Of a stretch of 64,000 nt of DNA, positions 10,839-30,560 are shown in pieces. Source of the stretch: Nitrospirillum viridazoti CBAmc (GTDB lineage: Bacteria; Pseudomonadota; Alphaproteobacteria; Azospirillales; Azospirillaceae); contig NZ_CP022110.1 of assembly GCF_000730165.1 (NCBI RefSeq), forward strand, positions 1,619,501-1,683,500, in the 5' to 3' direction. The notes beneath the pieces are model-generated. The model was not told where the DNA came from, ran no database searches, and saw nothing but the letters and a program-made list of their open reading frames with translations. Both the position numbers and the translations under genes were made by a program. Each line of letters begins with the position of its first letter. Position 1 is the stretch's first letter.

Positions 10839-11006
10839 TTGACGTAATCCTCCGTTCAACCTTGTTGTTTTGCTTTGCCGGCCCGTGTGCCCGGGGAAGC
10901 ACCGGCCGGTTGTTCCCCCGGCCCGGAGTGTTCCCAGAAAAACCAGACGTTGTCGCCTGGTCATGCCACCCGTCCGACCTCCCCGTCCGTCCAGCCCGTT
11001 ATTGGG

Positions 11007-11016
11007 ACCGGTGTCA
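11007..11016. promoter_or_regulatory. candidate operator, TonB receptor site 1
   Basis: ACCGGTGTCA, the reverse complement of the shared decamer, lies 168 bases upstream of the TonB receptor start. The flanks read GGG on the left and a T-run on the right. Confidence 0.6.
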
Positions 11017-11258
11017 TTTTTAATCCGCAGACAATGACCGGCTCCGGGCCCGCCGTGAACGACCGCCGTCAGGCGACGTCAGTGCCGCGCCAACAGCCGG
11101 CGGAACCCCTGATATCCAGATCGTGTGTTTCGAAAAATCGATCGGGCGCGGCAGCCGCCGACGGCACCCCAGCCCATGCCCCTGCGTGATGGCATTCCCA
11201 CACCCTCCCATTATGTCGGCGTCTTTAAGCCTTTTGGCCATCGCCGTTGTTCCTAAAA

Positions 11259-11268
11259 TGACACCGGT
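11259..11268. promoter_or_regulatory. candidate operator, TonB receptor site 2
   Basis: TGACACCGGT, preceded by AAA and followed by TACC. It lies 420 bases upstream of the TonB receptor start and just past the 3' end of the carboxylesterase gene. Confidence 0.6.
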
Positions 11269-11369
11269 TACCGACCGATGCAAGCACCAAGAGTTGTTCG
11301 CAGCGCCATCTTGCTCCCGCAGAGCCATTCTTGGCGAAACCGTTAGGGAATGCGCCGTTTAATCGGCGC

Positions 11370-13061
11370 TCAGGTCCCCTGCTGAGTGAAAGGCACCCGG
11401 GCAAAAAGGCGCCGCTCGGCACCACGCGGGTCCTGTTCCAGGCGCCAGTCCAGATCGAACACCAGGGTTTCCCGCCCCGACAAGGTATACGGCGCCCAGC
11501 GCGGCGCGCCGCCGGCATTGGGGTCGCCCGTGCGGGCGAAGGCGATGAAGGCGTTGCTCATCCGCTCCGCCATGAGTCGCGCCTCGGCGCTGTCGGTGGA
11601 CAGCGAGTCGGGCACGCCGGTGTTGTCGAACACCAGGGGAATGTCCAGCGTGTGCGGCGCCCGCCACTTGCCGCCATCCTTGGGCGAGCCCCAGTTCAGT
11701 TGATAGGCGTAGGTCGGCGCCGCCCCCTTTCCCCCCGCCCCTTGCCCCCCCGCCCCTTGGCCTAATGCCTGCGCCTGGGCGGCGCGCACCTCCGCCTCCA
11801 TCACCGCCGCGCGCCAGGAGCGGCCGGCCGTGGTGGCGGAAAAGAAGACGTCGCTTGGGCTGTAGTTCGGATACAGGCGGCGATATTCCGCCAGCACCAG
11901 GTCGGGGTTGATGTCCACCCGCATGTGCTTGGCCAATAGGGCCGGCACCTGGTCCCAGGTGAGGGTGAAGGTGGACGGATCGCTCCCGCCGATCAGCAGC
12001 CGCGTCTCGTCATGGGTGTTGCCGATGATCATGGGGATACCGGCCGACTGCGCCGGGGCGTCCGGATAGAAGGGATGGCGGGCCAGCACCTGGTCATCCA
12101 GCACGGGCCCCCAGTAGAGCCCGCCCATGCCCTGCCCGGCAACGCCGTGGATGGGATCGGCAGCGTTCAGGGCCGACAACAACTTTTCCACCGGCAGGGT
12201 GGCCGCCTCGGCCGCGCGTTCCGGCGTCAGGCCCAGGGCTTCCAGATAAGTCTTCGCGCGAGCGGTCGCGTTCAACGGCCCGGAGGCGGTGACCTGCTGG
12301 CCGCTCATGGTGGCGGCGCGGTGGAACAGGCCCTGGGCCGCCGGCGTGCCCATCAGGGTGGCGATCTTGGCCCCGCCGCCGGACTGGCCGAACAGCATGA
12401 CGCGGCCGGGATCGCCGCCGAACGCGGCGATGTTGTCGCGCACCCATTGCAGGGCCAGCACCAGATCCAAGATGCCGGCGTTGCCGGACTGGGCGTAGGC
12501 TGGCCCAGCCAGGCGGCCCAGATACAAATGGCCGAAGGCGTTCAGGCGGTGGTTCAAGGTCACCACCACCACGTCGCCCCGGTGGGCCAGGCGCGTGCCG
12601 TCATACAGCGCGTCGCTGCCGGAGCCGTGGGAATAGGCGCCGCCATGGATATAGACCATGACCGGCCGGTTGCCGCCGGCCTTGGCCTCCGGCGTCCAGA
12701 CGTTCAGAAACAGACAATCCTCAGATTGCGGTTCATCGAACCGGGTCTGGGGACACGCGGCGCCATAGGCCAGGGCGCCCTTGACCTCGCGCCAGGGGGC
12801 CGGCGGCTGCGGTGCCTGGAAACGGCGGGGGCCGGTGTCGGCGCCATAGCGGATGCCCTTGAATACCTGGACGCCATCGTGGCGGGTGCCGCGCACCCGG
12901 CCGTAGGCGGTGGTCACCACCGGATCGGAAGCGGCCCAGGCCCGCGCCGGCAGGGTCAGCGCCGCGGCGGCGGCCATGCCCAACCCCAACGCCTCTCGGC
13001 GATCGAATGATGACAAGGAAACGCGACTTTCCGCTTGGCGGAACGGTCGACCCGGGTTCAT
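11370..13061 (-). CDS. exported type-B carboxylesterase
   Basis: A 563-residue carboxylesterase/lipase family enzyme. The N-terminus carries a Tat-like signal (DRREALGLG followed by a hydrophobic Ala/Leu stretch to ARAWAA), so it is probably exported folded. The mature part begins with the family pattern VTTAYGRVRGTRHDGVQVFK. Other hallmarks are SEDCLFLNVWTP, the oxyanion region YIHGGAYSHGS and the nucleophile elbow FGQSGGGAK with the catalytic Ser. It hydrolyses carboxylic esters. In this locus a methyl, acetyl or feruloyl ester of pectin or glucuronoxylan is a plausible substrate, but this is inference. The ATG at 13061 follows GGGAGGAAG. It is divergent from a second esterase, with a shared operator between. 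Confidence 0.88.
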   Translation of the reverse strand: MNPGRPFRQAESRVSLSSFDRREALGLGMAAAAALTLPARAWAASDPVVTTAYGRVRGTRHDGVQVFKGIRYGADTGPRRFQAPQPPAPWREVKGALAYGAACPQTRFDEPQSEDCLFLNVWTPEAKAGGNRPVMVYIHGGAYSHGSGSDALYDGTRLAHRGDVVVVTLNHRLNAFGHLYLGRLAGPAYAQSGNAGILDLVLALQWVRDNIAAFGGDPGRVMLFGQSGGGAKIATLMGTPAAQGLFHRAATMSGQQVTASGPLNATARAKTYLEALGLTPERAAEAATLPVEKLLSALNAADPIHGVAGQGMGGLYWGPVLDDQVLARHPFYPDAPAQSAGIPMIIGNTHDETRLLIGGSDPSTFTLTWDQVPALLAKHMRVDINPDLVLAEYRRLYPNYSPSDVFFSATTAGRSWRAAVMEAEVRAAQAQALGQGAGGQGAGGKGAAPTYAYQLNWGSPKDGGKWRAPHTLDIPLVFDNTGVPDSLSTDSAEARLMAERMSNAFIAFARTGDPNAGGAPRWAPYTLSGRETLVFDLDWRLEQDPRGAERRLFARVPFTQQGT

Positions 13062-13111
13062 GCTTCCTCCCACTTCCTTTTATGGCCGAAGAACAAGAAC
13101 AGGGAGGACCT

Positions 13112-14131
13112 ATGGATCGCACCCGTCCCAATCTCGGGCCGATATATGACACCGGTTTCCATGTGTTTGTGAAGAGGGCTTTTGCGGCCGGCGTCGTTTG
13201 GGCCGTCCTGGTGACCGTGCTTCCGGGTGTCGCCCTGGCCGATGATCCGCTCACCCCCTTCCCCATCTGGCCCGGCGGCGTGGGCCCGGGATCGGAAGGG
13301 GTGACGGTGCAGGAGACGGTGGTGGAGCGTAGCGCCGATCCCGCCGCGCGGCACGACCGCTACACCGTGGGCATCACCCGGCCGCACCTGTCGCTGTACC
13401 GCCCGGCCCACCCCAACGGCACCGCCCTGCTGGTCATGCCGGGCGGCGGCTACCTCCGGGTGGTGGTGGACAAGGAAGGCGATGAGATCGGCCGGCGGCT
13501 GAGCGCCGCCGGGGTCACCGTCTTCGTCCTGACGTATCGCCTGCCGGGCGACGGCCACGTCCATGCCGCCGACGTGCCCCTGCAGGACGCGCAGCGCGCC
13601 ATGCGCCTGATCCGCGCCCGCGCCGCCGAATGGGGCGTGGACCCGCACAAGGTGGGCGCCATGGGCCTGTCGGCCGGCGGCCACGTCGCGGGCAGCCTGG
13701 GCACACGCTATGACGCCCCGGTCTATACACCACAGGACGCGGCCGACCGGCTGAGCGCCCGGCCCGACTTCCTGGCCCTGGTCTACCCCGTGGTCAGCAT
13801 GGATCCGGCCATCGCCCACCTGGGATCGCGCGCCCAGCTGCTAGGCGACAATCCCACCCCGGCGCAGGACGCGGCCTACTCCACGGACCTGGCGGTGACG
13901 GCCCGGACTCCGCCCACCTTCCTGTTGCACGCCGACGACGATCCGGCCGTGCCGGTGGAGAACAGCCTGCGCTTCTATGCCGCCCTACATTCCGCCGAGG
14001 TCCCGGCCGAACTGCACATTTTTCAAAAGGGCGGCCACGGTTTCGGTATCCGGGGCGTCACGGGATTGCCGGCCGCGGCGTGGCCGGACCTTTACATCGC
14101 CTGGGTGCGTGGCCTAGGGATGATGCCGTGA
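13112..14131 (+). CDS. exported alpha/beta hydrolase, acetyl-esterase-like
   Basis: A 339-residue protein with a hydrophobic signal segment (AAGVVWAVLVTVLPGVALA) followed by a hydrolase fold. The oxyanion motif is MPGGGYLRV, the nucleophile elbow is GLSAGGHVAG, the acid is in HADDDPAVP and the His is in KGGHGFG. This matches the deacetylase-like esterases that accompany hemicellulose and pectin loci. The start is a puzzle. ATG 13112 has an excellent GGGAGG ribosome-binding site but gives an unusually long signal-peptide N-region and puts the candidate operator (13147-13156) inside the gene. GTG 13169 gives a normal signal peptide but has no good ribosome-binding site. I list the ATG. Confidence 0.8.
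   Translation: MDRTRPNLGPIYDTGFHVFVKRAFAAGVVWAVLVTVLPGVALADDPLTPFPIWPGGVGPGSEGVTVQETVVERSADPAARHDRYTVGITRPHLSLYRPAHPNGTALLVMPGGGYLRVVVDKEGDEIGRRLSAAGVTVFVLTYRLPGDGHVHAADVPLQDAQRAMRLIRARAAEWGVDPHKVGAMGLSAGGHVAGSLGTRYDAPVYTPQDAADRLSARPDFLALVYPVVSMDPAIAHLGSRAQLLGDNPTPAQDAAYSTDLAVTARTPPTFLLHADDDPAVPVENSLRFYAALHSAEVPAELHIFQKGGHGFGIRGVTGLPAAAWPDLYIAWVRGLGMMP
13147..13156. promoter_or_regulatory. candidate operator between the two divergent esterase genes
   Basis: TGACACCGGT followed by TTCC. It lies 85 bases upstream of the carboxylesterase start. It is either just upstream of, or just inside, the divergent hydrolase gene, depending on that gene's start. Confidence 0.6.
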
Positions 14132-14167
14132 TGGTCCTTCCGTACGGGAAAGGCCGCCTTTAATGTC

Positions 14168-14177
14168 ACCGGTGTCA
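14168..14177. promoter_or_regulatory. candidate operator upstream of the KDG kinase gene
   Basis: ACCGGTGTCA within TGTCACCGGTGTCA, the most symmetrical of the seven sites (one base from a perfect 14-base palindrome). It ends 156 bases upstream of the kinase start at 14334. Confidence 0.65.
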
Positions 14178-14333
14178 ATTGGTCATTGATCCGGTCCGGT
14201 CCCGCTGGCACAGTGCGTCGGGCAAGCCCGCGGCACAGACGGGGCCGGGAGGATGCGTGGGTTGGCCTTGATCACCCCGCGGCAGCGACCAGGATGGACG
14301 CCAAGAGAGATGAACGGAATGGGTGGGCCTGTG

Positions 14334-15350
14334 ATGCGCGGTCATGTCGTGGTGTTCGGGGAACTGCTCCTGCGCCTGGCCGCCCCCGGCCACGAACTGC
14401 TGCTGCAAAGCCCCAGCCTGACAGCCCTGTTCGGCGGGGCGGAGGCCAATGTCGGTGTCGGCTTGGCCCACCTGGGCCATACCGTGCGCGCCGTCAGCAC
14501 CCTGCCCGACAACGCCATCGGCCGCGCCTGCGCCGGTGAGCTGCGCCGCCATGGCGTCGGCACGGACGGCATCCGTTACGCCGACGGCCGCATGGGCCTG
14601 TACTTCCTGTCCGCCGGCGCCGTGACCCGCCCGTCCGACGTCATCTATGACCGCGCCCGTTCCGCCTTCGCTGAGACGGACCCGGCCGCCTATGACTGGC
14701 AGGCGCTGCTGGCCGGGGCCGACTGGCTGCACATTTGCGGCATCACCCCCGCCGTCAGCCCGCAGGCCGAGACGGCAGCCCGCGCCGCCTTGCAGGCGGC
14801 CCACGCCCTGGGCCTGAAGATCTCCTTCGACTGCAACTACCGGCAGAAGCTGTGGACAGCGCGCGGCGGCAACGCCCCAGCCATCCTGCGCGGCTTCATC
14901 GAGCAGTGCGACCTGCTGTTCGCCAATGAGCGTGACGCCGCGCTGCTGCTGGACCTGGATGTGGACAAGCTGGAGGAGGCGGCGCGCTTCCCCGCCGCGG
15001 CCCGGGCCCTGTTCGACGCCTGCCCCCGCCTGCAGACCATCGCCACCACGGTGCGCAGCCACCACGGCGTGGACCAACAGGACTTCTACGGCAAGCTCGC
15101 CACCCGGCACAGCCTGCACCAGAGCCGCACCCACGCGCTGGCCGGCATCGTCGACCGCATCGGCAGCGGCGACGCCTATGCCGCAGGCCTGCTGCACGGC
15201 CTGATCCGGGGGTGGGAGCCCGACCGGGCCCTGTCCTTCGCCGTGGCCGCCGCCGCGCTGAAACATTCCATTCCCGGCGACGCCCTGCCCCTGCCCGAGG
15301 CCGACATCCTGGCGGCCCAGGACGCCGGCGGGCTGGACGTCCGTCGCTGA
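14334..15350 (+). CDS. kdgK: 2-keto-3-deoxygluconate kinase (PfkB family)
   Basis: A 338-residue PfkB-family sugar kinase. Conserved parts are FGELLLRLAAPG at the start, FGGAEANVGVGLAHLGH (substrate lid and glycine motif), VIYDRARSAFAE, FDCNYRQKLW and the catalytic anion-hole motif DRIGSGDAYAAGLLHG with the general-base Asp. The combination of EANV, YDR.RSAFA and DCNYR is the pattern of KDG kinases, which make 2-keto-3-deoxy-6-phosphogluconate with ATP. The start is uncertain among ATGs at 14310, 14319 and 14334; the last fits the family N-terminus. It is 26 bases upstream of the fructuronate/tagaturonate reductase gene, so the two form an operon behind the operator at 14168. Confidence 0.85.
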   Translation: MRGHVVVFGELLLRLAAPGHELLLQSPSLTALFGGAEANVGVGLAHLGHTVRAVSTLPDNAIGRACAGELRRHGVGTDGIRYADGRMGLYFLSAGAVTRPSDVIYDRARSAFAETDPAAYDWQALLAGADWLHICGITPAVSPQAETAARAALQAAHALGLKISFDCNYRQKLWTARGGNAPAILRGFIEQCDLLFANERDAALLLDLDVDKLEEAARFPAAARALFDACPRLQTIATTVRSHHGVDQQDFYGKLATRHSLHQSRTHALAGIVDRIGSGDAYAAGLLHGLIRGWEPDRALSFAVAAAALKHSIPGDALPLPEADILAAQDAGGLDVRR

Positions 15351-15376
15351 TACCCGCCTTCCGGAGCCTGAACCTG

Positions 15377-16858
15377 ATGACCCCGCACCTGTCCCCCGAC
15401 ACCCTGCCGACCTTGCCCCAGACCGTGGCCCGGCCCGGCTATGACCGGGCGGTGTGCGGCATCGGTATCGTCCATTTCGGCCCGGGCGCCTTCCACCGCG
15501 CCCACCAGGCCGTCTACACGGACGACGCTCTGGCGTTGGAGGCCAATAATCCGGAAAATCGCGACTGGACCATCAGCGCGGTGTCGCTGAAAAGCCCGGG
15601 CGTGCGCGACGCGCTGGTGCCACAGGACGGCCTGTACACACTGGTGACCCTGGACCGCACCATCGGCCACCGGGTCATCGGATCGATCCGCGAGGTGCTG
15701 TGCGCGCCGGAGGCGCAGGACCAGGTTCTGAACCGCCTAGCCGACCCCGCCACCCGCATCGTCACCATCACCGTGACGGAAAAGGGCTACTGCCTGACCG
15801 CGGCGGGTGAGCTGGACACCAGCCATCCGGACATCGTCCATGACCTGGCCCACCCGGAAACGCCGATCAGCGTCATCGGCTATGTCGTCGCCGGCCTGCG
15901 CCGCCGCCGCGCCGTCGGCCTGCCGCCCTACACCGTCATCAGTTGCGACAACATGACGGACAATGGGCGCCGCCTGGGCCGTGCCACGGCGCAATACGCC
16001 GCCGCCCTGGATGCCGACCTGGGCGCCTGGGTACGGGAGTATGTCGCCTTCCCCAGCACCATGGTGGACAGCATCACCCCGGCCACCGACGACGCCCTGC
16101 GTCAGCGGGTGCTGGACGTGACCGGCGTGGCCGACGCCTGGCCCATCCAGCGCGAGGCCTTCACCCAATGGGTGATCGAGGACCGCTTCTGCAACGGCCG
16201 CCCGGCCTGGGACAAGGCCGGCGTGATCCTGACCAGCGACGTCGGCGCCTTCGGCCTGGCCAAGCTACGCCTGCTGAACGGCCCGCACTCCGCCCTGGCC
16301 TACCTGGGCGGCCTGGCGGGCGTGGAAACCGTGGCCGACGCCATGACCACGCCGGAACTGGCGGGCTTCCTGGAGCGGCTGATGCTGCAGGACGTGCTGC
16401 CCACGGTGATGCCGCCGGCGGGCTATGATCTGGCCCGGTATGCCGGGCAGATCCTGGAGCGCTTCCGCAACCCCGCCATCCGCCACCTGCTGGCCCAGAT
16501 CGCCTGGGACGGCTCGCAGAAGCTGCCCTACCGCCTGTTCGGCGTGATCGAGGAACGGCTGGCCCAGGGCCTGTCGATATCCCGCCCCGCCCTGGTGGTC
16601 GCCAGCTGGATGCACTTCGTCCGCCGCCGCGCGACCGAGGGCGCCGGCCTGACCGACCCACTGGCCCCCACTCTGCTGGACATCGGCGCCCGCTGCGACG
16701 GCACACGCGCCGATGTGGACCGCTTCCTGGCGCTGGAGGTGATGTTCGCGCCGGCGCTGGCCACCGACACACGTTTCCGCGCCGCGCTGACCGACGCCTA
16801 TGCCCGCCTGGGCGATGGCGGGCGCGACGCGGTGCTGGCCGCCGTCGCGGCGCTGTAA
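15377..16858 (+). CDS. mannitol dehydrogenase family oxidoreductase, probable fructuronate/tagaturonate reductase
   Basis: A 493-residue long-chain polyol dehydrogenase. The Rossmann motif GIVHFGPGAFHRAHQAVYTD is at the N-terminus. The central SCDNMTDNG and the catalytic-domain region MVDSITPATDD are family hallmarks, and the C-terminal all-helical domain is complete. The family contains mannitol dehydrogenase, UxuB (fructuronate to mannonate) and UxaB (tagaturonate to altronate). The surrounding uxaC, kduI, kduD and kdgK genes favour UxuB or UxaB, but sequence alone does not decide between them or exclude mannitol. The ATG at 15377 follows CCGGAGCC. It is in an operon with the KDG kinase. 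Confidence 0.85.
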   Translation: MTPHLSPDTLPTLPQTVARPGYDRAVCGIGIVHFGPGAFHRAHQAVYTDDALALEANNPENRDWTISAVSLKSPGVRDALVPQDGLYTLVTLDRTIGHRVIGSIREVLCAPEAQDQVLNRLADPATRIVTITVTEKGYCLTAAGELDTSHPDIVHDLAHPETPISVIGYVVAGLRRRRAVGLPPYTVISCDNMTDNGRRLGRATAQYAAALDADLGAWVREYVAFPSTMVDSITPATDDALRQRVLDVTGVADAWPIQREAFTQWVIEDRFCNGRPAWDKAGVILTSDVGAFGLAKLRLLNGPHSALAYLGGLAGVETVADAMTTPELAGFLERLMLQDVLPTVMPPAGYDLARYAGQILERFRNPAIRHLLAQIAWDGSQKLPYRLFGVIEERLAQGLSISRPALVVASWMHFVRRRATEGAGLTDPLAPTLLDIGARCDGTRADVDRFLALEVMFAPALATDTRFRAALTDAYARLGDGGRDAVLAAVAAL

Positions 16859-16918: not shown

Positions 16919-16928
16919 TGACACCGGT
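16919..16928. promoter_or_regulatory. candidate operator upstream of the hydratase-TRAP operon
   Basis: TGACACCGGT preceded by AAA and followed by TTCC. It lies 140 bases upstream of the hydratase start and 60 bases after the oxidoreductase stop. Confidence 0.6.
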
Positions 16929-17068
16929 TTCCTTTAGACACGATGGACAGAAATGACGGGATCCCAGGGAGGGGCGACCATGGCTCGGCGTGCCGTGCCT
17001 GCCGCTGCGGCAGCCATCGTCCGGAGTAGGATTTGGCGGGACAGGAATTGCATGCGCGGGGTGCGGTC

Positions 17069-17887
17069 ATGACCGCCGCCTATTCCCCCGCCGATGCCGC
17101 CGCCGCTTTCGTCGCGGCCCGCCGGGCGGCACATTTTCTGCCAGGCTATCCGGGGCCCGCGCCTATAGATCTGGCCCAGGGCTATGCCGCGCAGGAGGTG
17201 GCGATTGGCCTGTGGCCCGATCGCATCGCCGGCTGGAAAATCGGCCGCATTCCCCCCGATTGGGAGGAGACGCTGGGCGAGCCGCGTCTGGCCGGCCCCA
17301 TCTTCGCCCGCAACGTCTGGCTGGCCGAGAGCGGCGCCGTGACGCCCTTTCCCACCTTTGTCGGCGGCTTCGCCGCGGTGGAGGCGGAATACGTCTTCCG
17401 CTTGAGCGCCGACGCGCCGGCCGGCAAGGTGAGCTGGACGGAGGATGAGGCGGCGGACCTGGTGGGCGCGCTCCATATCGGGATCGAGCCGGCGGGCAGC
17501 CCGCTCGCCACCATCAACGACCTGGGGCCGCCCGTGGTGGTGTCGGACTTCGGCAACAATGCCGGCCTGATTCTGGGGCCGGAAATCACCGGGTGGCGCG
17601 CGCGCGGCTGGGACAGCATGCGCTGCGAGACGATCATCGACGGCACCAGAGTGGGCGTGGGTGGCGCACCGTCCATCCCCGGTGGGCCTTTGTCGGCCTT
17701 GCGCTTCCTCGCTAGCCATCTGGCCGCGCGCGGGCGCCCGCTGAAAAGCGGCGACCTGGTATCCACCGGCGCCACCACCGGCATCCACGATATCGTGGCC
17801 GGCCAAACGGCCAAGGTGGACTTCGGCCCCGACGGTGTCCTGCACTGCCGGGCGGTGCCGGCGACGCCCCCTGATGGGCCCCCCTGA
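17069..17887 (+). CDS. 2-keto-4-pentenoate hydratase / fumarylacetoacetase-fold protein
   Basis: A 272-residue protein of the MhpD-like hydratase branch of the fumarylacetoacetate hydrolase superfamily. The N-terminal helix carries the family motif AGWKIGRIP. A metal-binding segment, VEAEYVFRL, and the C-terminal motif GDLVSTGATTGIHDIVAGQT are also typical. Enzymes of this fold hydrate or dehydrate 2-keto acids at a divalent metal. In related sugar-acid pathways a member dehydrates 2-keto-3-deoxy-pentonates, so a role on a keto-deoxy acid made from uronates is plausible but unproven. The ATG at 17069 is the first with the family N-terminus. It heads the operon that continues into the TRAP transporter. 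Confidence 0.8.
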   Translation: MTAAYSPADAAAAFVAARRAAHFLPGYPGPAPIDLAQGYAAQEVAIGLWPDRIAGWKIGRIPPDWEETLGEPRLAGPIFARNVWLAESGAVTPFPTFVGGFAAVEAEYVFRLSADAPAGKVSWTEDEAADLVGALHIGIEPAGSPLATINDLGPPVVVSDFGNNAGLILGPEITGWRARGWDSMRCETIIDGTRVGVGGAPSIPGGPLSALRFLASHLAARGRPLKSGDLVSTGATTGIHDIVAGQTAKVDFGPDGVLHCRAVPATPPDGPP

Positions 17888-17939
17888 CGGCGCAACGACA
17901 CCGCCAGGGTTACAAGAAATAAGCGAACGGGAGGATGGA

Positions 17940-18935
17940 TTGATCAAGCGCCGACAACTGCTGGGGGGCATGGCCGCCGGCGCGGCCGTGGCGCTCGCCG
18001 GCGGCCATGCCCAGGCCGGCGCCCCGCCGCCCGGCACCTTCACCGCGTCCGACGTGCACGTGAAGGACTATCCCACCGTCCAGGCCATCCAGTGGATCGG
18101 CGAGCAACTGGCCAAGGAGACGGGTGGGCGCCTGTCCATGCGCGTCTACCACTCCGGCCAGATCGGGCGGGAGAACGACACCATAGACCTGACCCGCTAC
18201 GGCGCGCTGGACTTCACCCGCGTGAACTTCGCGGCGCTGACCAACATCTTCCCCGTCTCCGGCGTGCTGACGCTGCCCTACGTGTTCGACGATGTGGGGC
18301 ACATGCGCCGGGCGCTGGACGGCACCGTGGGCAAGGATTTGCTGGCAGCCCTGAGCCAGCGCGGCCTGGTGGCCGCCTGCTTCTACGACAGCGGCGCGCG
18401 GTGCATCTACAACGGCCGCCGGCCGGTGCATGAACCGGGCGACCTGCGCGGCATGAAGATCCGCGTGCCCCTGTCCGATATCTTCATGTCCATGGCGCAA
18501 GCCATGGGTGCCAACCCGACGCCGCTATCCTTCGGTGAGGTGTTCACCGCCCTGCAGACCCATCTGATCGACGGGGCGGAGAACAACTGGCCCAGCCTGG
18601 ACTCAACCCGCCAGTTCGAGGTGGCGCGCCACTGGGCGGAAACCCATCATTCCATGTCACCGGAACTGCTGTTCATCTCCGAGCGCAGCCTGCGGGCTCT
18701 GACCCCGGCCGACCGCGACCTGGTGCTGGATCTGGCCACCCGGTCCGTCACCATGATGCGCACGCTGTGGGACAAGGACGAGGCTGCCGCCAGGGCCCAC
18801 TGCATCGCCAATGGCGTCCAGGTGACGGAGGTGGACAAGGATGCTTTCCGTCGCGCCACGGAACCGGTGCTCAAGACCTACCTGGCCGACCCAGACCGCA
18901 ACCGGTTCTATCGCCGCATCCGGCAGGAGGCCTGA
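17940..18935 (+). CDS. dctP: TRAP transporter substrate-binding protein (DctP), probable uronate binder
   Basis: A 331-residue periplasmic binding protein. It has a signal peptide with twin-arginine-like residues (MIKRRQLLGGMAAGAAVAL, cleaved near AQA). The DctP fold follows, with FTASDVHVKDYPTVQAIQW, the carboxylate-binding Arg region DLRGMKIRVP and the conserved AMGANPTPLSFGEVFTALQT. The start is a TTG at 17940 directly after a strong GGGAGG; no ATG is available in the right place. DctP proteins capture organic acids, and several known members bind galacturonate or glucuronate. The operon and operator context favour a uronate here. It is followed by dctQ after 3 bases. Confidence 0.92.
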   Translation: MIKRRQLLGGMAAGAAVALAGGHAQAGAPPPGTFTASDVHVKDYPTVQAIQWIGEQLAKETGGRLSMRVYHSGQIGRENDTIDLTRYGALDFTRVNFAALTNIFPVSGVLTLPYVFDDVGHMRRALDGTVGKDLLAALSQRGLVAACFYDSGARCIYNGRRPVHEPGDLRGMKIRVPLSDIFMSMAQAMGANPTPLSFGEVFTALQTHLIDGAENNWPSLDSTRQFEVARHWAETHHSMSPELLFISERSLRALTPADRDLVLDLATRSVTMMRTLWDKDEAAARAHCIANGVQVTEVDKDAFRRATEPVLKTYLADPDRNRFYRRIRQEA

Positions 18936-18938
18936 ACC

Positions 18939-19463
18939 ATGCACGCGACCCAAGCCGTACCTGCCCCAACGGGCCTCGCCGGCACCCTTCTCACTGGCCT
19001 GTCCCATGCCGCCACCGTACTGGCCGCCATCGGCATGGTGGGGATGAGCCTGGCCGAAGGCTGGCAGGTCTTCGCCCGCTATGTCCTGAACGACAGCCCC
19101 GGCTGGACCGAACCCCTGACCCTGCTGTTCATGACCACCACCGCCTTGATGGGGGCGGCCGTGGCCGTGCGGCGGGAGATGCACTTCCGCTTCATCGCGC
19201 TGGCCCAGGTGGCGCCGCCCCGGGTGCAGGCGGCGCTCAACGCCTTCGCCCGCCTGGTGGTGCTGGCCATTGGCGCCGCCTTGGCCATCTGGGGCTGGGA
19301 CCTGATGGCCGACAACTGGTCCATCGCCATGCCCGGCACGGAACTGCCGGAGGGACTGAACTATCTGCCGCTGTCGCTGGGCGGGGCGCTGATCGCGCTG
19401 TTCGCGGCGGAACGGCTGGTGGTGCCGCTGCCCACCCCCGATCACATGGTTGTGGAGGATTGA
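18939..19463 (+). CDS. dctQ: TRAP transporter small permease (DctQ)
   Basis: A 174-residue protein with four predicted membrane helices. The family motif WQVFARYVLNDSPGWTEPL lies in the loop after helix 1, and REMHFRF lies after helix 2. DctQ is the small inner-membrane subunit that pairs with DctM in sodium- or proton-driven uptake. The ATG at 18939 follows AGGAGG overlapping the end of dctP. Its stop is 5 bases before dctM, so translation of the three subunits is tightly linked. Confidence 0.92.
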   Translation: MHATQAVPAPTGLAGTLLTGLSHAATVLAAIGMVGMSLAEGWQVFARYVLNDSPGWTEPLTLLFMTTTALMGAAVAVRREMHFRFIALAQVAPPRVQAALNAFARLVVLAIGAALAIWGWDLMADNWSIAMPGTELPEGLNYLPLSLGGALIALFAAERLVVPLPTPDHMVVED

Positions 19464-19468
19464 GCGCC

Positions 19469-23309: not shown

Positions 23310-23409
23310 GACGAATACCTTTGATGAAACGAAGGGACCTCAAAGGTAGATACCCGTCCCCGAACGATGAATGCTTGTCCGTCCGCCTTACTTGCGTGAG
23401 AATCCGGAA

Positions 23410-24339
23410 ATGAGTTCAGCTCCCCTCGACCCCTTCTCCGATCTGCTGAAATTCGCCGACGCCCAGACGGTGGTGTCGGGCGGCTTCACCGCCGGTGGCG
23501 CCTGGTGCATCCGCTTTCCGCCACCGGGCAAGATCAAGTTTTTCGCCATCCTGCGGGGCGGTGGCTGGCTGGATATCGAGGGGGAGCCGGCACCGCACCG
23601 CCTGGATGCGGGCGACGTGTTCCTGCTGCCGGCGCAACGGCCTTTCCGGCTGGGCAGCGACCTGAGGGCCACCCCCGTGGAGGCCAGAACCGTCTTCGGA
23701 CCCAACACTGGCTGCGGCATCCGCCAGGTGGGCGATGGTGATGAATTCTTCCTGCTGGGCGCCCATGTGGTGCTGGACCCGGCCTACGGCTGGCTGCTGG
23801 CCGACATCCTGCCGCCGGTGATCCTGGTCCGCCATACGGCGCCAGAGGCCGACGGCCTGCACTGGCTGCTGGACCAACTGGTACGCGAGCACGCCGCCGA
23901 CCTGCCGGGCGCTGGCATCGCCGCCGCGCAACTGGCGCATCTGCTGTTCATCCGCATCCTGCGGGCCCATCTGGTGGCGGGGGCCCCCTTGCCCGCCGGC
24001 TGGCTGCGCGCCGCCACCGACGCCCGCCTGGCCCCGGCCCTGCGGCTGATGCACGGCGACCCCGGGCGTGCCTGGCAACTGGGCGAACTGGCCAAGGCCG
24101 CCGCCATGTCGCGCACCACCTTCGCTCAATATTTCAAGGCGGTGGCCGGCATTCCGCCCCTGGCCTATCTGACGGCTTGGCGCATGCGGCTGGCGGAGCG
24201 GGCCTTGAAGGAACAGAACGCGCCCGTATCCGAACTGGCCCACCGCCTTGGTTATGCCTCCGAAAGCGCCTTCAGCAACGCCTTCAAACGCGTGACCGGG
24301 GTAGGCCCACGGCGCTATCGCGGGACCGTAGGCTCATAG
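23410..24339 (+). CDS. AraC family transcriptional regulator with N-terminal cupin
   Basis: A 309-residue regulator. The N-terminal half is a cupin-6/AraC-binding type sensor (FFAILRGGGWLDIEGEPAPH, then DAGDVFLLPAQRPF). The C-terminal two helix-turn-helix domain contains WQLGELAKAAAMSRTTFAQY and SELAHRLGYASESAFSNAFK, then the PRRYR end. This architecture is typical of regulators of SDR or oxidoreductase genes that sense a small aldehyde or ketone. The ATG at 23410 lies after CCGGAAA. It is divergent from the SDR gene, the probable target. Confidence 0.9.
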   Translation: MSSAPLDPFSDLLKFADAQTVVSGGFTAGGAWCIRFPPPGKIKFFAILRGGGWLDIEGEPAPHRLDAGDVFLLPAQRPFRLGSDLRATPVEARTVFGPNTGCGIRQVGDGDEFFLLGAHVVLDPAYGWLLADILPPVILVRHTAPEADGLHWLLDQLVREHAADLPGAGIAAAQLAHLLFIRILRAHLVAGAPLPAGWLRAATDARLAPALRLMHGDPGRAWQLGELAKAAAMSRTTFAQYFKAVAGIPPLAYLTAWRMRLAERALKEQNAPVSELAHRLGYASESAFSNAFKRVTGVGPRRYRGTVGS

Positions 24340-24415: not shown

Positions 24416-25717
24416 TCAGCGCTTGGTCAGCACCATGTTCCAACCGGGGCTGGCTTCCGGGAAGGAGATCTGGGTTCCCGGCGGGGCATTGTCGAAAGCC
24501 TCCACCGCTTGGTGATAAGCCTCGAATGTGCCGCTGCGCGTCGGGTACAGCCAATCCGCCCACACCCCGACCATGAAGACGCACAGCAGGGCGCAAGCGG
24601 GAATGCGGAACTTGGCCGGCGCCTTGCACGCCAGGATCAGGCAGGCGATGAAGAAGATCAGGATGGGAATGACGAAATAGCGGCCACCGTATCCCAGCAT
24701 GCCCAGCAGGGCCCATTGGTCACCCACCGGCGAGCCGGCTGGGCTTACCAGGGCGCAGGCCAGCAGGATAAGCCCGGCAAGGCAGAATTTCCGGAAGCTC
24801 GACGGCCCTTTCACCAGCGCGAAGGCAATGATGGACAGGCCCGCCAGGGCGATAACCCATGCCATCGCGGGCTCCTGCCATAGCGCGCCCTGCTTCAGGA
24901 CGCCGACGTTGGCGGTGCCCAACACGCCGCTGAGGAACACCTGATCCGTCAGCATGCGCGCCAGCCGCGTGGCACTGGCGCCCAGCACCAGGCTCTGGCG
25001 CTCCCCCGCCCCAAGGGTGAGCAGGCACAGGACCTGGATCAAGGCGGTGGATGCGACGATCGCCGCCTGAATGAAGGCATGGCGCCGTTGATCGGGGGCA
25101 GCACCCAGCCATTGCCACAGGGCGACGGGGGCCAGGAACACGCAGAATGGCCCGGTGAGCCCGCTGACCAGCAACACGCCGTACTGAAGCCCCCGCCAGC
25201 CCCGCCCCTGCGGCGCCGGCAGCACCAGCATCAGGAAGGACAGGAGCATCAGGTGCCATTGGGCATTGGTCAGGTTCAAATGGATTTCATACGAATTGGG
25301 AACGCCCAGGTAAAAGAGCACAAGCGCCCCGCGCGCCCAGAGGGACGGGACAAGCGGCGCCCCCCGCAAAAGCAAAAGAACGGCGGGCGCCACTTGGGCG
25401 ATGAAGCCGCCGGCCATCATCCACCCCGGCAGCCATCCCAGCGGCAGGGCCCGGGCGACCAGGGCCATGGCATAGGGGAAAAGGTTGATGTACCCGGCGC
25501 TGGGCATGACCAGCACCCTCAGGCCCTTGGTATAGGCGTTCTGGAACCAGATGACGCCATCCTCAGCCCACAGGGTCGGATGCATCACCCAATCCGCGTC
25601 ACGGCTGACCAGCAACGCGGACAGGACAACGATGGCCAGAATCTTGACGGCGAGGGAACCGGCCAGATGCCGCCCGACGGTCGGTCGGCTGATCAGCGGA
25701 AGAGGCGTGTCGGTCAC
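24416..25717 (-). CDS. polytopic membrane protein, possibly GT-C-type glycosyltransferase
   Basis: A 433-residue protein with about ten hydrophobic segments. A first periplasmic loop after helix 1 contains WAEDGVIWFQNAY; acidic residues at this place are typical of GT-C glycosyltransferases that use lipid-linked sugars. Later words such as NLTNAQWHLMLLSFL resemble uncharacterised membrane glycosyltransferase-like proteins. No solute-carrier motif is seen. It is not flanked by other glycan genes and has no uronate-type operator, so a role in envelope glycan modification is only a guess. The ATG at 25717 is the first in the frame. Confidence 0.6.
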   Translation of the reverse strand: MTDTPLPLISRPTVGRHLAGSLAVKILAIVVLSALLVSRDADWVMHPTLWAEDGVIWFQNAYTKGLRVLVMPSAGYINLFPYAMALVARALPLGWLPGWMMAGGFIAQVAPAVLLLLRGAPLVPSLWARGALVLFYLGVPNSYEIHLNLTNAQWHLMLLSFLMLVLPAPQGRGWRGLQYGVLLVSGLTGPFCVFLAPVALWQWLGAAPDQRRHAFIQAAIVASTALIQVLCLLTLGAGERQSLVLGASATRLARMLTDQVFLSGVLGTANVGVLKQGALWQEPAMAWVIALAGLSIIAFALVKGPSSFRKFCLAGLILLACALVSPAGSPVGDQWALLGMLGYGGRYFVIPILIFFIACLILACKAPAKFRIPACALLCVFMVGVWADWLYPTRSGTFEAYHQAVEAFDNAPPGTQISFPEASPGWNMVLTKR

Positions 25718-25856: not shown

Positions 25857-26630
25857 TCACCGGGCCAGCCACCCCCCATCGACCGCCAGGACGGTGCCGT
25901 GCACATAGTCGGCAGCGGCGGAGGACAGGAACACCGCCGCCCCGCCCAAATCCTCCGGATGCCCCCAGCGGCCGGCGGGAATGCGGGCCAGGATGTCGCG
26001 GTTGCGCGTCTCGTCGTTGCGCAGCGCCTCGGTATTGTTGGTGGCGAAATAACCGGGGGCGATGGCGTTGACGTTGATGCCCTTGGCCGCCCACTCGTTG
26101 GCCAACAGCTTGGTCAAGCCCGCGATGCCGCTCTTGCTGGCGGTGTAGGACGCCACGCGGATGCCGCCCTGGAAGGACAGCATGGACGCGATGTTGATGA
26201 TCTTGCCGCCCCCTGGGCCCCCGCTTCCCTGGTTCACCATACGGCGCGCCACGGCCTGGGCCAGGAAGAAGGGCGTCTTCAGGTTCACGTTCATCACCAG
26301 GTCCCAATCGTCCTCGGAGAATTCCAGGGCGTCGGCCCGGCGGATCGTGCCGGCGTTGTTGACCAGGATGTCGATGCGGCCGAAGGCGGCGACGGCCTGG
26401 TCCACCACCTGCTGCACCACGCCAACACTGTCGAGATCGGCATGAACGAAGTGGAAGCGGGCGCCCGCCTCCGTCACCGCGGCCTCGGTCTCCAAGGGCG
26501 TGCTGCGGCCGGCGGCCACGATGTCAGCACCGGCCCGGGCCAGCGCCACGGCCAGTCCCTGCCCCAGGCCGGTGTTTGCGCCGGTGACCAGGGCCACGCG
26601 GCCGGTCAGATCGAACGGGTTGTAAGCCAT
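25857..26630 (-). CDS. kduD: 2-dehydro-3-deoxy-D-gluconate 5-dehydrogenase
   Basis: A 257-residue classical SDR. Motifs: NAD-binding TGANTGLGQG, NNAGTIRRADA, the catalytic Ser in INIASMLSFQGG, YTASK, then NAIAPGYFATNNTEALRND, which is specific for KduD. KduD reduces 3-deoxy-D-glycero-2,5-hexodiulosonate to 2-keto-3-deoxygluconate in the pectin and unsaturated-uronate pathway. It lies 14 bases after kduI and completes the uxaC-kduI-kduD operon. The ATG at 26630 follows GGAGGGCGATCCC. Length and motifs are normal for the family. Confidence 0.93.
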   Translation of the reverse strand: MAYNPFDLTGRVALVTGANTGLGQGLAVALARAGADIVAAGRSTPLETEAAVTEAGARFHFVHADLDSVGVVQQVVDQAVAAFGRIDILVNNAGTIRRADALEFSEDDWDLVMNVNLKTPFFLAQAVARRMVNQGSGGPGGGKIINIASMLSFQGGIRVASYTASKSGIAGLTKLLANEWAAKGINVNAIAPGYFATNNTEALRNDETRNRDILARIPAGRWGHPEDLGGAAVFLSSAAADYVHGTVLAVDGGWLAR

Positions 26631-26644
26631 GGGATCGCCCTCCC

Positions 26645-27496
26645 TCAGCGCAGCTGGCAGATATCCAGGACCTTCATGTCGGTGTAGTCGAGGTTTTCCC
26701 CGCCCATAGCCCAGATGAAGGAATAGTTGGCGGTGCCGGAGCCCATGTGGATGGACCAGGGCGGCGACACCACGGCCTCCTCGTTGGCGACCACGATGTG
26801 GCGGGCCAGCTCCGGCTCACCCATGAAATGAAAGACGCGCTGGTCATCCTTGATATCGAAGTAGAAATAGACCTCTGATCGGCGATCATGCAGGTGGGGC
26901 GGCATGGTGTTCCACACGCTGCCCGGCTTCAGCATGGTCAGGCCCAGCAGCAGCTGCGCCGACTGGCAGGTCTGGGGCACGATGTACTGGTAGATCGTGC
27001 GCTCGTTGCTGGTCTCCAGCGCCCCGCGCTCCAGCGGCACGGCCTGGTCGATGGAGATCTTCACTGTCTTGAAACGGGCGTGGGCCGGGGTGCTGGCCAG
27101 GTAGAACTTGGCCGGGTGGGTGGCATCGGCCGAGGCAAACACCACCATCTCCGTTCCCATGGGCACATACAGGCCGTCGTGCGACGCCAGGTCGTAGGCC
27201 GTGCCATCCACCGTGACCGTGCCGGGGCCGCCGACGTTGACGATGCCCAGTTCCCGACGCTCCAGGAAAGGCTTGCCGGCGGCCGAGGCTGGTTCCGTCT
27301 GCAGGGGCAGGTTGATGGAGGCGTCCACCGGCGCGGCGCCGCCGATGATGAAGCGTTCATTGTGGGAATAATTCAGGCTGACCTCACCGGCCACGAACAG
27401 GTCGGTGATGAGGTAGCGGTCGCGCAGCTGCTGGTTACGGGCGCCATCCATCATGTCGGGATGGGTCGCCTGATAGACCTTCTTGAACATGGCCAT
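26645..27496 (-). CDS. kduI: 5-dehydro-4-deoxy-D-glucuronate isomerase
   Basis: A 283-residue cupin isomerase. The N-terminus has [18 protein letters not shown] and the mid-region [11 protein letters not shown] typical of KduI. The metal site is visible as [17 protein letters not shown] with two His and a Glu. The C-terminal [20 protein letters not shown] is a KduI signature. It converts the unsaturated product of pectate lyases (4-deoxy-5-keto-uronate) to the diketo acid that KduD reduces. The start is ATG 27496 or the in-frame ATG two codons on. It lies in the middle of the uxaC-kduI-kduD operon. Confidence 0.95.
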
Positions 27497-27574: not shown

Positions 27575-28993
27575 TCAGTCCAGCTTGTAGGCGCGCTTGG
27601 GCAAGCGGTAGGCCAAGTCCACCGCTACCTCCGCCGCGTCGTCCTCATCGATGCGGTGTTCCGCCACCAGGCGCGCCAGGAAGGCGCAATCCACCCGACG
27701 GGCCACGTCGTGCCGGGCGGGGATGGACAGGAAGGCGCGGGTGTCGTCGTTGAAGCCCACGGTGTTGTAGAAGCCCGCCGTTTCCGTCGTCTGCTCGCGG
27801 AAGCGCATCATCCCCTCCGGGCTGTCGTGGAACCACCAGGCGGGGCCCAGCTTCAGCACCGGGTAATGTCCGGCCAGCGGCGCCAGCTCGCGGGCATAGA
27901 CCGTCTCATCCAGGGTGAACAGGATGACGGACAGGCGCGGATCGTTGCCGTAGCGGTCCAGCAGCGGCTTCAGCGCATGGACATATTCGGTACGCAGCGG
28001 GATGTCGGCGCCCTTGTCGCGGCCATAGCGCTGGAAGATCTGGTGGTTGTGATTGCGGAAGGAACCGGGGTGGATCTGCATGACCAGCCCATCCTCCAGG
28101 CTCATGCCCGCCATCTCGGTCAGCATCTGGGCGCGGAACAGCTCGGCATCCGCCGCCGTGAAGGTACCCTTGACCACGCGGGCGAACAGGGCCTCGGCCT
28201 CGGCCGGTGACAGGTCGGCGGTGGCGGCGGTGACGTGGCCATGGTCGCTGCTGGTGGCGCCCACGGCTTTGAAGTCGATGCGGCGCTTGCGGTGCGCGTC
28301 GAGATAGCCCCGCCAGCTGTAAACGTCCTCGCCGGTGATGGCGGCGAACCGCTCCATGGCCGGACGGAAGTTCTCATGCTCCGGATCGATGACGGCATCC
28401 GGGCGATAGGCGGTGATGACCTTGCCCGTCCAGCCGCTGTCGCGGATGGCCTCATGATGGGCCAGCGTGTCCACCGGGCTTTCCGTGGTGGCGATGACCT
28501 CGATGTTGAAGCGCTCGAACAGGGCGCGGGGGCGGAACTCCTCCATCGCCAGCTTGGCGGTGATGGTGTCGAAGTACAGGTCAGAGGTCTCGGCGCTCAG
28601 CTTCACATCCAGGCCGAAGACCTGGGTGAAGACATGGTTCAGCCAGGTGGAGGACGGGGTGCCCCGGAACAGGTGGAAATTGCTGGCCAGCAGGCGCCAA
28701 GCCTCGCGCGGGTCCACATCGGGGGCCGGCTGGCCGGCGGCCGGTATGCCCAGCTGCTCCAAGGTCACGCCCTGGCTGTACAGCATGCGGTAGAGGTAGT
28801 GGTCGGGCTGCAGCAGCAGGGCGGTGGCGTTGGGGAAGGCCTCGTTACCGGCGAACCACGACGGGTCGGTGTGGCCATGCGGACTGATGATGGGCAGTCC
28901 CTTCACCGCCGCGTAGAGGCGCCGCGCGATGGCGCGGACCGCAGGATCGGCGGGGAATAGGCGATCGTCGTGCAGGGTCAGATTCTGGGCCAT
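27575..28993 (-). CDS. uxaC: glucuronate (uronate) isomerase
   Basis: A 472-residue amidohydrolase-fold isomerase, full length. The metal-binding region PIISPHGHTDPSWFAG carries the first two His. The central WRGYLDAHRKRRIDFKAVGA, the segment MQIHPGSFRNHN and the C-terminal SIPARHDVARRVDC are UxaC signatures. It converts D-glucuronate to fructuronate and D-galacturonate to tagaturonate, the substrates of the UxuB/UxaB-type reductase at 15377. The ATG at 28993 follows AAGGAAGG. It is the first gene of the operon, with the operator at 29104-29113 110 bases upstream. Confidence 0.95.
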   Translation of the reverse strand: MAQNLTLHDDRLFPADPAVRAIARRLYAAVKGLPIISPHGHTDPSWFAGNEAFPNATALLLQPDHYLYRMLYSQGVTLEQLGIPAAGQPAPDVDPREAWRLLASNFHLFRGTPSSTWLNHVFTQVFGLDVKLSAETSDLYFDTITAKLAMEEFRPRALFERFNIEVIATTESPVDTLAHHEAIRDSGWTGKVITAYRPDAVIDPEHENFRPAMERFAAITGEDVYSWRGYLDAHRKRRIDFKAVGATSSDHGHVTAATADLSPAEAEALFARVVKGTFTAADAELFRAQMLTEMAGMSLEDGLVMQIHPGSFRNHNHQIFQRYGRDKGADIPLRTEYVHALKPLLDRYGNDPRLSVILFTLDETVYARELAPLAGHYPVLKLGPAWWFHDSPEGMMRFREQTTETAGFYNTVGFNDDTRAFLSIPARHDVARRVDCAFLARLVAEHRIDEDDAAEVAVDLAYRLPKRAYKLD

Positions 28994-29103
28994 CGGGCCT
29001 TCCTTCACTATCCGCCAAGATGCGGCAAACGTTGTTGCAGGAACGGCGTCCGGATGTCCGGTAGGCCGCTCTCCTCCCGCCCCATTTGGTAACGGTCTTG
29101 GTA

Positions 29104-29113
29104 ACCGGTGTCA
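29104..29113. promoter_or_regulatory. candidate operator upstream of uxaC-kduI-kduD
   Basis: ACCGGTGTCA with GGTA on the left and AATTT on the right. It lies 110 bases upstream of uxaC and 45 bases past the 3' end of the LacI-type regulator gene. Confidence 0.65.
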
Positions 29114-29158
29114 ATTTCGCATCGCACATTCGGTGCCGAAACAGGCGAAGGTTGGAGA

Positions 29159-30274
29159 TCAACCCCGGGGCGGCACAGAGGACTCGCGCACGACCATGCG
29201 GCTGACAACGCCGGTGGCGGTGTGTCCTTCCTCCTCATCGCTGGAAATGCGGATGATCAGCTTTTCCGCCGCCAGCCGCCCCAGATCCTTGGCCGGCAGG
29301 CGCACGGTGGTCAGCGACGGCCACAGCCGGGTGGCGATGGGACTGTCGTCGAAGCCCACGATGGTCAGGTCGCGGGGAATGCTGATGCCCAGGCGCTGCG
29401 CCGTCTTGTAGACACCGGCCGCCATCTCGTCGTTGCTGGCGAAAATGGCCGTGGGCCGGGGTTCCCGCGTCAGCAGGCGGGTGGCGCAGACCTCGCCGGA
29501 TTCGAAGGTGTAAGCGCCCTCCTCCACCATCTCTGGACGCAGGGTGATGCCGTGGCTTTTCAAAGCGCTGACGAAGCTTTCGCGGCGTTCGTGGGCGGAG
29601 CGGTGACGCGACGGGCCGGCGATGAAACCGATGTCGCGGTGACCCAGAGCGGCCAGATGTTCCGCCACCTCCGCCGCCCCCTGGCGGTCGTTGTAGACCA
29701 CCATGTTGGCGGCCTCGTCCAGCGACACGGCGGACAGGCGGACATAGCGGCAGCCCAGGTCGCGCAGCACCTCGACCAGCTGCGGATTTTCCGACGCGGG
29801 CGGCACGACGATGACGCCGTCCAGGTTCTGGCGCTGCACGAACTGCTTGGCGTCGTTCAGGAAATGCGGGCTTTTCTGGTCGCAGGGATGCACCACCAGT
29901 TCGAACCCCGCCAGGCGGCAGGCGGCCAGCACACCCTCCTGGATATTCACGATGAACTGGGCGTTGGGGTTGTCATAGACCAGGCCCAGCAGGAAGGACC
30001 GCTGGAAGGCCAGCCCGCGCGCCTGGGGGCTGGGCACGTAGCCGATCTGCTCGATGATGCCGTTGATGATGGTGCGCGTCTCTTCATTCACGAAGGGCGA
30101 CTGGTTGATGACGCGCGACACCGTCTTCTTGGACACGTGCGCCAGGCGGGCCACATCATTGATGGTGGGCGGCCGGTCCAGGGTCCAGGTCACGGCCTCC
30201 ACGGCCACGGTCTGGATGGCGGCGGCACGTCCCCGCCGGGGGCGCCCCCTACGCGGCGCGGCATCCTGGGTCAT
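29159..30274 (-). CDS. LacI family transcriptional regulator, candidate master regulator of the uronate locus
   Basis: A 371-residue LacI/GalR regulator with an Arg-rich N-terminal extension of about 35 residues. The DNA-binding domain reads PTINDVARLAHVSKKTVSRV with the hinge helix near SPQARGLAFQ. The periplasmic-binding-like core follows, with GLVYDNPNAQFI, DGVIVVPP, GHRDIGFIAG, AIFASNDEMAAGVY and TIVGFDDSPIA. Such proteins usually repress catabolic genes until a sugar-derived inducer binds. It sits between the uxaC-kduI-kduD operon and the divergent pectate lyase gene, each of which has a TGACACCGGT site. The link to that site is inference from position and from the palindromic, central-CG nature of the site. 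Confidence 0.92.
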   Translation of the reverse strand: MTQDAAPRRGRPRRGRAAAIQTVAVEAVTWTLDRPPTINDVARLAHVSKKTVSRVINQSPFVNEETRTIINGIIEQIGYVPSPQARGLAFQRSFLLGLVYDNPNAQFIVNIQEGVLAACRLAGFELVVHPCDQKSPHFLNDAKQFVQRQNLDGVIVVPPASENPQLVEVLRDLGCRYVRLSAVSLDEAANMVVYNDRQGAAEVAEHLAALGHRDIGFIAGPSRHRSAHERRESFVSALKSHGITLRPEMVEEGAYTFESGEVCATRLLTREPRPTAIFASNDEMAAGVYKTAQRLGISIPRDLTIVGFDDSPIATRLWPSLTTVRLPAKDLGRLAAEKLIIRISSDEEEGHTATGVVSRMVVRESSVPPRG

Positions 30275-30560
30275 CGCTGGTCTTCTCGTTCTTCTTCAGG
30301 ACTTCTTTTTGAAGTGCCTGTTTCCAAAATCCTACCATGCCGCGTCCCGCGCGCCGCCGCAAAAGAGATTTGTTTTTCTTTCCCACGGCCCTTGCCCCGG
30401 CCCCTCCCCCCACCCGGGCGTCATTCCGCCGCACCCCCGGAACTGTACTCTTGCCCCCTTAGGAAACCGGTGTCATTTATTGACGCCGAGAGCGGGGTCC
30501 AGCACGCTTGACGTGTCGCGGCCCGCCATCGCCATAACAAACATCTGGGAGGATAGACCG
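30275..30560. other. divergent intergenic region between regulator and pectate lyase genes
   Basis: 286 bases without a gene. The half next to the regulator is T/A-rich; the half next to the lyase is GC-rich and contains the operator at 30466-30475. Both promoters must lie here. Confidence 0.6.
30466..30475. promoter_or_regulatory. candidate operator upstream of the pectate lyase gene
   Basis: ACCGGTGTCA preceded by GGAA and followed by TTTAT. It ends 85 bases upstream of the pectate lyase start and 190 bases from the start of the divergent regulator gene. Confidence 0.65.

Follow-up and report, generated by a model that had tools for sequence, protein, structure and literature searches.

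Are the repeated decamers in a pectin and galacturonate gene cluster of the plant-associated bacterium Nitrospirillum viridazoti CBAmc the binding sites of a single regulator and, if so, of which protein? The window analyzed here is a stretch of 64,000 nucleotides (C1:1619501-1683500) from a genome of 7,382,386 bases in four contigs. An earlier note on this DNA had reported seven copies of TGACACCGGT and proposed that they define a uronate/pectin regulon read by a LacI-family protein encoded among them. On the sequence comparisons reported here, we consider it very probable that the seven sites are operators of this protein (29159-30274), which would control the use of pectin and galacturonate in Nitrospirillum. 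The proposed regulon is supported by gene context, footprints, sites in relatives, co-occurrence with the regulator and a site on a different contig from the regulator gene, but the specific element is an operator of two halves with a 14 bp core rather than the decamer.

Occurrence and specificity of the sites

All seven exact copies of TGACACCGGT were found where they had been placed, and the window has no further exact copy, as the earlier note had claimed for everything outside 11.0-30.5 kb. The number is also far above chance, as had been argued: in 100 dinucleotide-preserving shuffles of the window the decamer occurred 0.08 times on average and at most once. Decamers with one mismatch are in excess as well (13 in the window, 4.35 expected). 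Across the genome the decamer occurs 27 times, with 20 copies outside the window, and a reversed control pattern 8 times. Only 2 of the 20 outside decamers have a regulon-type second half (GGCA, TACC) and 18 have none; the specific feature is therefore the extended site and not the decamer. The genome scan that had been suggested as a test does find the decamer, but it would look weak on the bare decamer, because 27 occurrences face 8 of the reversed pattern; it is the extended site that is specific. The predicted specificity is carried by the flanks, that is, by the decamer together with a second half TWCC or GNCA.

When the form AAATGACACCGGTTNCCA was allowed up to three mismatches, 20 places were found genome-wide (3 for the control). 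All five places at one mismatch lie in the window, and another of its seven sites, at two mismatches, is level with three places outside. A matrix was also built from 45 sites, all of them in genomes other than Nitrospirillum and picked by a core-fixing pattern; it gave the seven sites scores of 22.1 to 32.0, with 12.9 for the best unrelated place in the window. Genome-wide scoring covered the matches to the decamer and to the degenerate pattern, and among these places four outside the window reached at least 22. A 14-base near-palindrome with a central CG had been claimed for one site; this is 14164-14177, which has a single mismatched pair and is the second best match to the symmetric pattern genome-wide, behind C1:961889, while in the remaining window sites one half has diverged. 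An even inverted repeat with a central CG is the form of LacI/GalR operators, and perfect palindromes of this kind (TGACACCGGTGTCA) occur in three relatives' loci (L033-L035). An Rfam scan of the window gave nothing at the gathering score.

Positions of the sites and conservation within Nitrospirillum

The closest named genomes belong to Nitrospirillum amazonense (LacI 96-99% identical) and N. iridis (96%). Footprints were obtained by aligning the intergenic regions to two to five congeners and comparing each 14-mer with flanks of 60 bases. At five of six sites (11003, 11259, 13147, 29100 and 30462) all 14 positions were kept, and 12 of 14 at 14164, with 24 to 54% of flank positions fully conserved. 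Distances to called starts were measured for six sites and are 43-101 bp in five cases and 188 bp for lacI.

Two sites lie upstream of the TonB-receptor gene: 11003-11016 (minus strand, TGACACCGGTCCCA; 14/14 in 3 congeners, flanks 0.36), 43 bp upstream of its start at 10964, and 11259-11272 (plus strand, TGACACCGGTTACC; 14/14 in 3 congeners, flanks 0.48), 295 bp upstream of that start and with its centre 256 bp from that of the first, a spacing at which a loop is possible. The site at 13147-13160 (plus strand, TGACACCGGTTTCC; 14/14 in 2 congeners, flanks 0.54) stands 74 bp before an esterase gene (start 13073) and at the beginning of a divergent PaeX-like gene, and the same divergent arrangement around such a site was found in one relative's locus (L116). 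The near-symmetric site at 14164-14177 (TGTCACCGGTGTCA, no strand assigned; 12/14 in 3 congeners, flanks 0.51) is 76 bp upstream of a gene resembling 2-keto-3-deoxygluconate (KDG) kinase; at this kdgK site congener G005 has GGTTACC and the other congeners TGTCACC. At 16919-16932 (plus strand, TGACACCGGTTTCC), upstream of hydratase-like, tripartite ATP-independent periplasmic (TRAP) transporter and OprB genes, the site belongs to a run of about 40 alignment columns that do not vary between the window and 3 congeners, in an alignment made without one partial sequence. The site at 29100-29113 (minus strand, TGACACCGGTTACC; 14/14 in 5 congeners, flanks 0.24) is 92 bp upstream of uxaC-kduI-kduD and is kept before the same operon outside the genus, and the one at 30462-30475 (minus strand, TGACACCGGTTTCC; 14/14 in 4 congeners, flanks 0.53) lies between lacI (minus strand, start 30274) and a PelZ-like gene on the plus strand. 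Within the cluster span, the AraC, SDR and 24416-25717 genes have no site of their own.

Conservation in other genera

The sites are not confined to Nitrospirillum. They were found in two Hyphomonadaceae metagenome-assembled genomes (L033, L034) and in one labelled Hydrogenophilaceae (L035), whose LacI proteins are 54-58% identical to that of the window, as well as in G017, G018, G023, G026, G030, G034 and G048. In relatives with a LacI 54-65% identical, sites stand before the same genes as in the window; taken together, relatives' sites precede uxaC or kduI, TonB receptors, hydratase/TRAP genes, pelZ, kdgK, esterases and MFS transporters. Among relatives' loci in view that have uxaC or kduI, 10 of 10 have a site before that operon, if L034 is counted as TGTCACCGGTTACC and L118 with two mismatches before uxaB. 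In L132, L133 and L135 a site precedes uxaA (altronate dehydratase, PF04295 and PF20629), which is followed by uxaB. In G017, uxaC-kduID is on contig C2 (L141) and lacI on C3, and both have sites, so that the motif goes with the genes and not only with the neighbourhood.

The TonB receptors of relatives mostly have symmetric operator pairs upstream. Of the 9 lacI loci of relatives in which a receptor could be seen, 8 have paired operators, at a spacing of 24 bp in L033 and of 34-35 bp in L034, L035, L110, L111, L112, L114 and L115 (in L034, L110 and L115 one operator of the pair differs at two positions). The two TonB-receptor operators of L113 are 151 bp apart.

Co-occurrence of the sites with the regulator

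If the sites are read by the LacI protein, their number should follow its presence. We counted the pattern TGACACCGGTKNCM, with perfect palindromes counted on both strands, in genomes that are related to one another. The 16 of 59 relatives with a LacI match of E < 1e-100 have 118 pattern matches (9 for the reversed control), and the other 43 have 30 (control 8), which is above the control but scattered, with a maximum of 3 per genome; site number and LacI presence were associated over the 59 genomes (p 1e-7). When only other genera of the same family were considered, the 6 genomes with the LacI had 6-15 matches each and the 22 without it 0-3 (Mann-Whitney p 1.5e-4). A class-wide draw of 193 genomes, in which 5 of the 8 LacI-bearing genomes were already among the 59, had a LacI match of E <= 1e-60 in 10 genomes; of the 8 with E <= 1e-85, six have sites near that lacI (G000, G017, G048, G154, G089 and G153). 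Of these, G089, G154 and G153 were not among the 59, and the G153 LacI is only 45% identical, with a site within 160 bp. Sites thus stand before uronate catabolic and transport genes and are kept across regulator-bearing genomes, with G038 as an exception, and are few in genomes that lack the regulator.

Two forms of the half-site

Half-sites occur in two linked forms, TGNCACC and GGWAACC. In ten relatives' lacI loci, we read the four bases that follow the decamer, with no letters prescribed, at 35 decamer places, counting palindromes once. GNCA and TWCC together make up 28 of the 35 places (31 of 38 by strand counts). Letters 11 and 14 were G..A in 14 cases and T..C in 15, with one case of each mixed kind (4 places with other letters were left out); this coupling has a Fisher p of 9e-7, which comes from loci that are related and not independent. 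It is conceivable, at somewhat less than even chances, that the two forms, whose outer and fourth bases change in step, are distinct codes read by a single LacI-type protein. A TGNCACC half is present at least once in most of the operators seen; an operator made of two GGWAACC halves turned up a single time, in one of the five genomes searched. Which form occurs tends to differ with the target gene, with TTACC in 8 of 10 uxaC/kduI operators and TTTCC in 8 of 9 hydratase/pelZ operators. The TGNCACC half points away from the gene in all 10 of the asymmetric uxaC/kduI operators that were viewed, which may reflect descent from one ancestral operator. If true, two half-site codes could set the strength or the orientation of repression among the genes of the regulon.

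Regulator, mechanism and alternative explanations

The candidate regulator, on the minus strand, has the two domains of the LacI/GalR family, an N-terminal helix-turn-helix domain (PF00356, 1.5e-16, residues 37-82) and a C-terminal periplasmic-binding-like domain (PF13377, 7.1e-39, residues 204-366). Its best PDB match is 1zvv (CcpA, named glucose-resistance amylase regulator; 1.4e-43). LacI-family proteins normally act by repression that a ligand relieves. Without substrate, a LacI dimer would sit on the operator and repress; an intermediate formed as pectin is degraded (galacturonate, KDG or an unsaturated uronate) would bind the sugar-binding domain and release the protein, and the TonB receptor, porin, esterases, pectate lyase, TRAP transporter, UxaC, reductase, KdgK and KduI/KduD would then rise together. 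Autoregulation of lacI would fit the site between lacI and pelZ. By eye, four hydratase/TRAP sites could be read as operators in a promoter spacer, flanked by TTG and TATA-like boxes; the uxaC sites do not fit this reading, which is a hint only.

Alternatively, the motif may belong to another regulator, such as the AraC-type protein encoded at 23371-24339 inside the cluster, with the LacI merely travelling with the cluster; the many sites in which one half departs from the palindrome would agree with this. However, the perfect CG-centred palindromes of L033-L035 have the LacI form, the AraC protein has no tblastn match listed in 24 relative loci (7-21 kb each), most of which have sites, and the diverged LacI of G153 still has its site close by, and we regard this explanation as very improbable. 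We give even less credence to the repeats being chance or mobile repeats without a regulatory role. The 20 decamers outside the window, 18 of them without a regulon-type second half, could be read in that way, but the sites are invariant between diverged flanks, hold fixed positions before orthologous genes and co-occur with the LacI.

A paralogue raises a further alternative. The genome encodes a sister LacI (C1:2594678-2595748, L109 about 8679-9734), 61% identical to the window LacI, and the operators could be read by this protein or by both paralogues, for instance as partners linking glucuronate and galacturonate use. The two share the recognition helix VSKKTVSRVIN, of which VSKKTVSRV is common also to the orthologues and to G038 and G046; they group together (support 98/95) among the LacIs that go with the motif; and the sister gene sits in a glucuronate module with ManD, a GH2 beta-glucuronidase-like enzyme, an MFS gene and a TonB receptor. 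Yet G005, in which no LacI near 61% is among the matches listed (second-best 43%), has eight pattern matches, six of them in the cluster; G017, G018, G023, G026, G030, G034 and G048 each have only one LacI above 50% identity among the matches listed; and the motif was not found in 19 kb around the sister gene in two species. We therefore think a role of the sister unlikely, though less so than that of the AraC protein. Since the sister combines the shared helix with a locus devoid of the motif, an identical helix is not enough to predict the operator. No near-palindrome recurring in both species was found at the sister-locus promoters checked. Upstream of its TonB receptor and ManD genes (L109) we noted GTGGTATGACCAC and TGGTAAGACCA, which by eye resemble GntR-type UxuR sites and suggest that the glucuronate module is under another regulator. 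The pair offers a natural case of one LacI lineage split into two paralogues with the same recognition helix and apparently different targets. Elsewhere in the genome, a LacI-family gene with one internal TGA was seen at C2:1823517-1824518, about 5 kb from another LacI-family gene.

Returning to the window LacI as the reader of the sites, several observations weigh against it. TGACACCGGT is absent around the sister gene despite the shared helix. G038 and G046, with LacI matches of E <= 1e-85, have no sites near lacI by the pattern: in G038 (L117) the LacI is 53% identical, with the same recognition helix, and no site was found in 19 kb; genome-wide the two have 1 and 0 pattern matches, respectively, and G046 has TGTCACCGGTATCA before uxaB. 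Scattered pattern matches, at most five (G158), occur in 69 of the 183 class genomes without a LacI match (E <= 1e-60). In the sites themselves, the right half often fails to mirror the left, no start is close to the 11259 site, and the 13147 site may fall in the opening codons of the PaeX-like gene. That the protein represses and does not activate is an assumption drawn from its family. Finally, UxaA is missing from the window, and the route for galacturonate looks incomplete.

Genes of the cluster

Genes were named by Pfam, NCBIfam and PDB sequence searches, and the names PaeX, PelZ, kinase and reductase come from NCBIfam matches below the curated cut-off. The minus strand carries the TonB-dependent receptor (7905-10964), a carboxylesterase-family protein (11370-13073; PF00135, 3.4e-94), KduD (25857-26630; TIGR01832, above cut-off), KduI (26645-27496; PF04962, 7.3e-35) and UxaC (27575-29008; PF02614, 1.3e-73). 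On the plus strand are a PaeX-like pectin acetylesterase (13112-14131; NF041902, 4e-115), whose start was taken by eye from GGAGG before ATG and may be later; a KDG kinase-like PfkB kinase (14253-15350); and a fructuronate/tagaturonate reductase-like protein of the mannitol dehydrogenase family (15212-16858), whose true start is probably after 15212. They are followed by a 2-keto-4-pentenoate hydratase-like protein of the FAH superfamily (17033-17887, weak match, start as called), the TRAP transporter (17835-20749, with DctP at 17835-18935 and the large permease DctM at 18767-20749, the N-terminal 240 residues of which are probably the small permease), an OprB-family porin (20946-22262) and the mature part of a PelZ-like pectate lyase (30600-31913; PDB 9buj pectate lyase, 3.6e-22; start approximate). 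The cluster span also holds an SDR gene, the AraC-type gene and a protein without a family match (24416-25717).

The lyase branch is represented by pectate lyase, KduI, KduD and the kinase. As to the dehydratase, no close UxaA was found in the genome, which has one match to the altronate/galactarate dehydratase family (C3:805359-805727), 35-44% identical in pieces to a relative's UxaA. Nothing within two mismatches of the symmetric operator form occurs in the 15 kb around it; one place, about 3.7 kb away from the dehydratase match, differs at two positions from the asymmetric form and is not a convincing operator. The FAH-superfamily protein adjoins TRAP and pelZ genes in relatives' regulons at 50-60% identity, and we know of no uronate-use step that fits it; shared control would tie this protein and the TonB receptor to pectin use.

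Further along the window, a second TonB receptor (1015 aa) is followed by a TPR/2OG-Fe(II) oxygenase protein (37497-42556); the receptor is preceded only by a decamer with one mismatch (37373), which we did not count as a site. Genes for transglutaminase-DUF2126, circularly permuted ATP-grasp/Alpha-E and transglutaminase proteins stand in a row at 42710-49533.

Candidate sites elsewhere in the genome

A near-perfect palindrome, AATTGACACCGGTGGCAATT, lies at C1:961889-961908 (L065 about 4392) between a chemoreceptor gene and the gene of a 1275-residue LamG-domain protein. Its exact 14-mer is at the same place in one of six congeners (G002); of the others, three have pattern matches at places that seem unrelated by alignment and two have no GGCA match, making it a weak candidate. 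At C1:2325665-2325678 (L067), TGATACCGGTTTCC stands, by eye, about 100 bp before a small lipoprotein-like open reading frame, with an inverted repeat adjoining. This 14-mer also occurs in G002, G003 and G006 (context compared in G003 and G006), and an Rfam scan nearby gave sub-threshold matches only. Three other places were rejected: C3:668654 is inside a transporter coding sequence, and its conservation follows from the choice of exact matches; C1:314802 is inside a called reading frame of 788 codons; and C1:1894479 overlaps the called start of a chemoreceptor gene.

Comparison with known systems

A search of open-licence papers by title and the start of the abstract, and for the exact strings TGACACCGGT and ACACCGGTGT, gave none that we recognized as describing this regulator or motif. 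In gammaproteobacteria, uronate pathways are controlled by UxuR/ExuR of the GntR family and KdgR of the IclR family. The pathways are of the same kind, KduI/KduD included, but the proteins belong to other families and have other operators, whereas the predicted system here is of the LacI type. Algoriphagus marincola belongs to the Bacteroidota. Its UxuR2 is described as a LacI-family protein that controls galacturonate/glucuronate loci with a TRAP transporter (PMC5507952), and by that description resembles the window system in family, uronate use and TRAP transport, in another phylum.

The closest parallel is with the local LacI-family sugar regulons described by Ravcheev et al. (2014; PMC4052901), which include six LacI groups for glucuronate/galacturonate, e.g., ExuR, KdgR, UxaR and UxuR, and in which operators are usually even palindromes with a central CG, 30-140 bp upstream. 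As in those regulons, the regulator adjoins the genes it would control, the CG-centred even palindromes are mostly 30-140 bp upstream, and tandem sites have helical spacing. As far as that description goes, the lineage named there is Bacteroides (UxaR, UxuR, KdgR), and the system reported here is set apart by its operator, TGACACCGGT with GNCA/TWCC, and by its TonB receptor-pectinase content. For pectin/galacturonate use, Nitrospirillum and several further genera now have a candidate operator and a candidate regulator. At the sequence level, a new LacI-family uronate/pectin regulon is well supported; it would be ordinary in kind, and less ordinary in its two-form half-site and its split paralogue pair.

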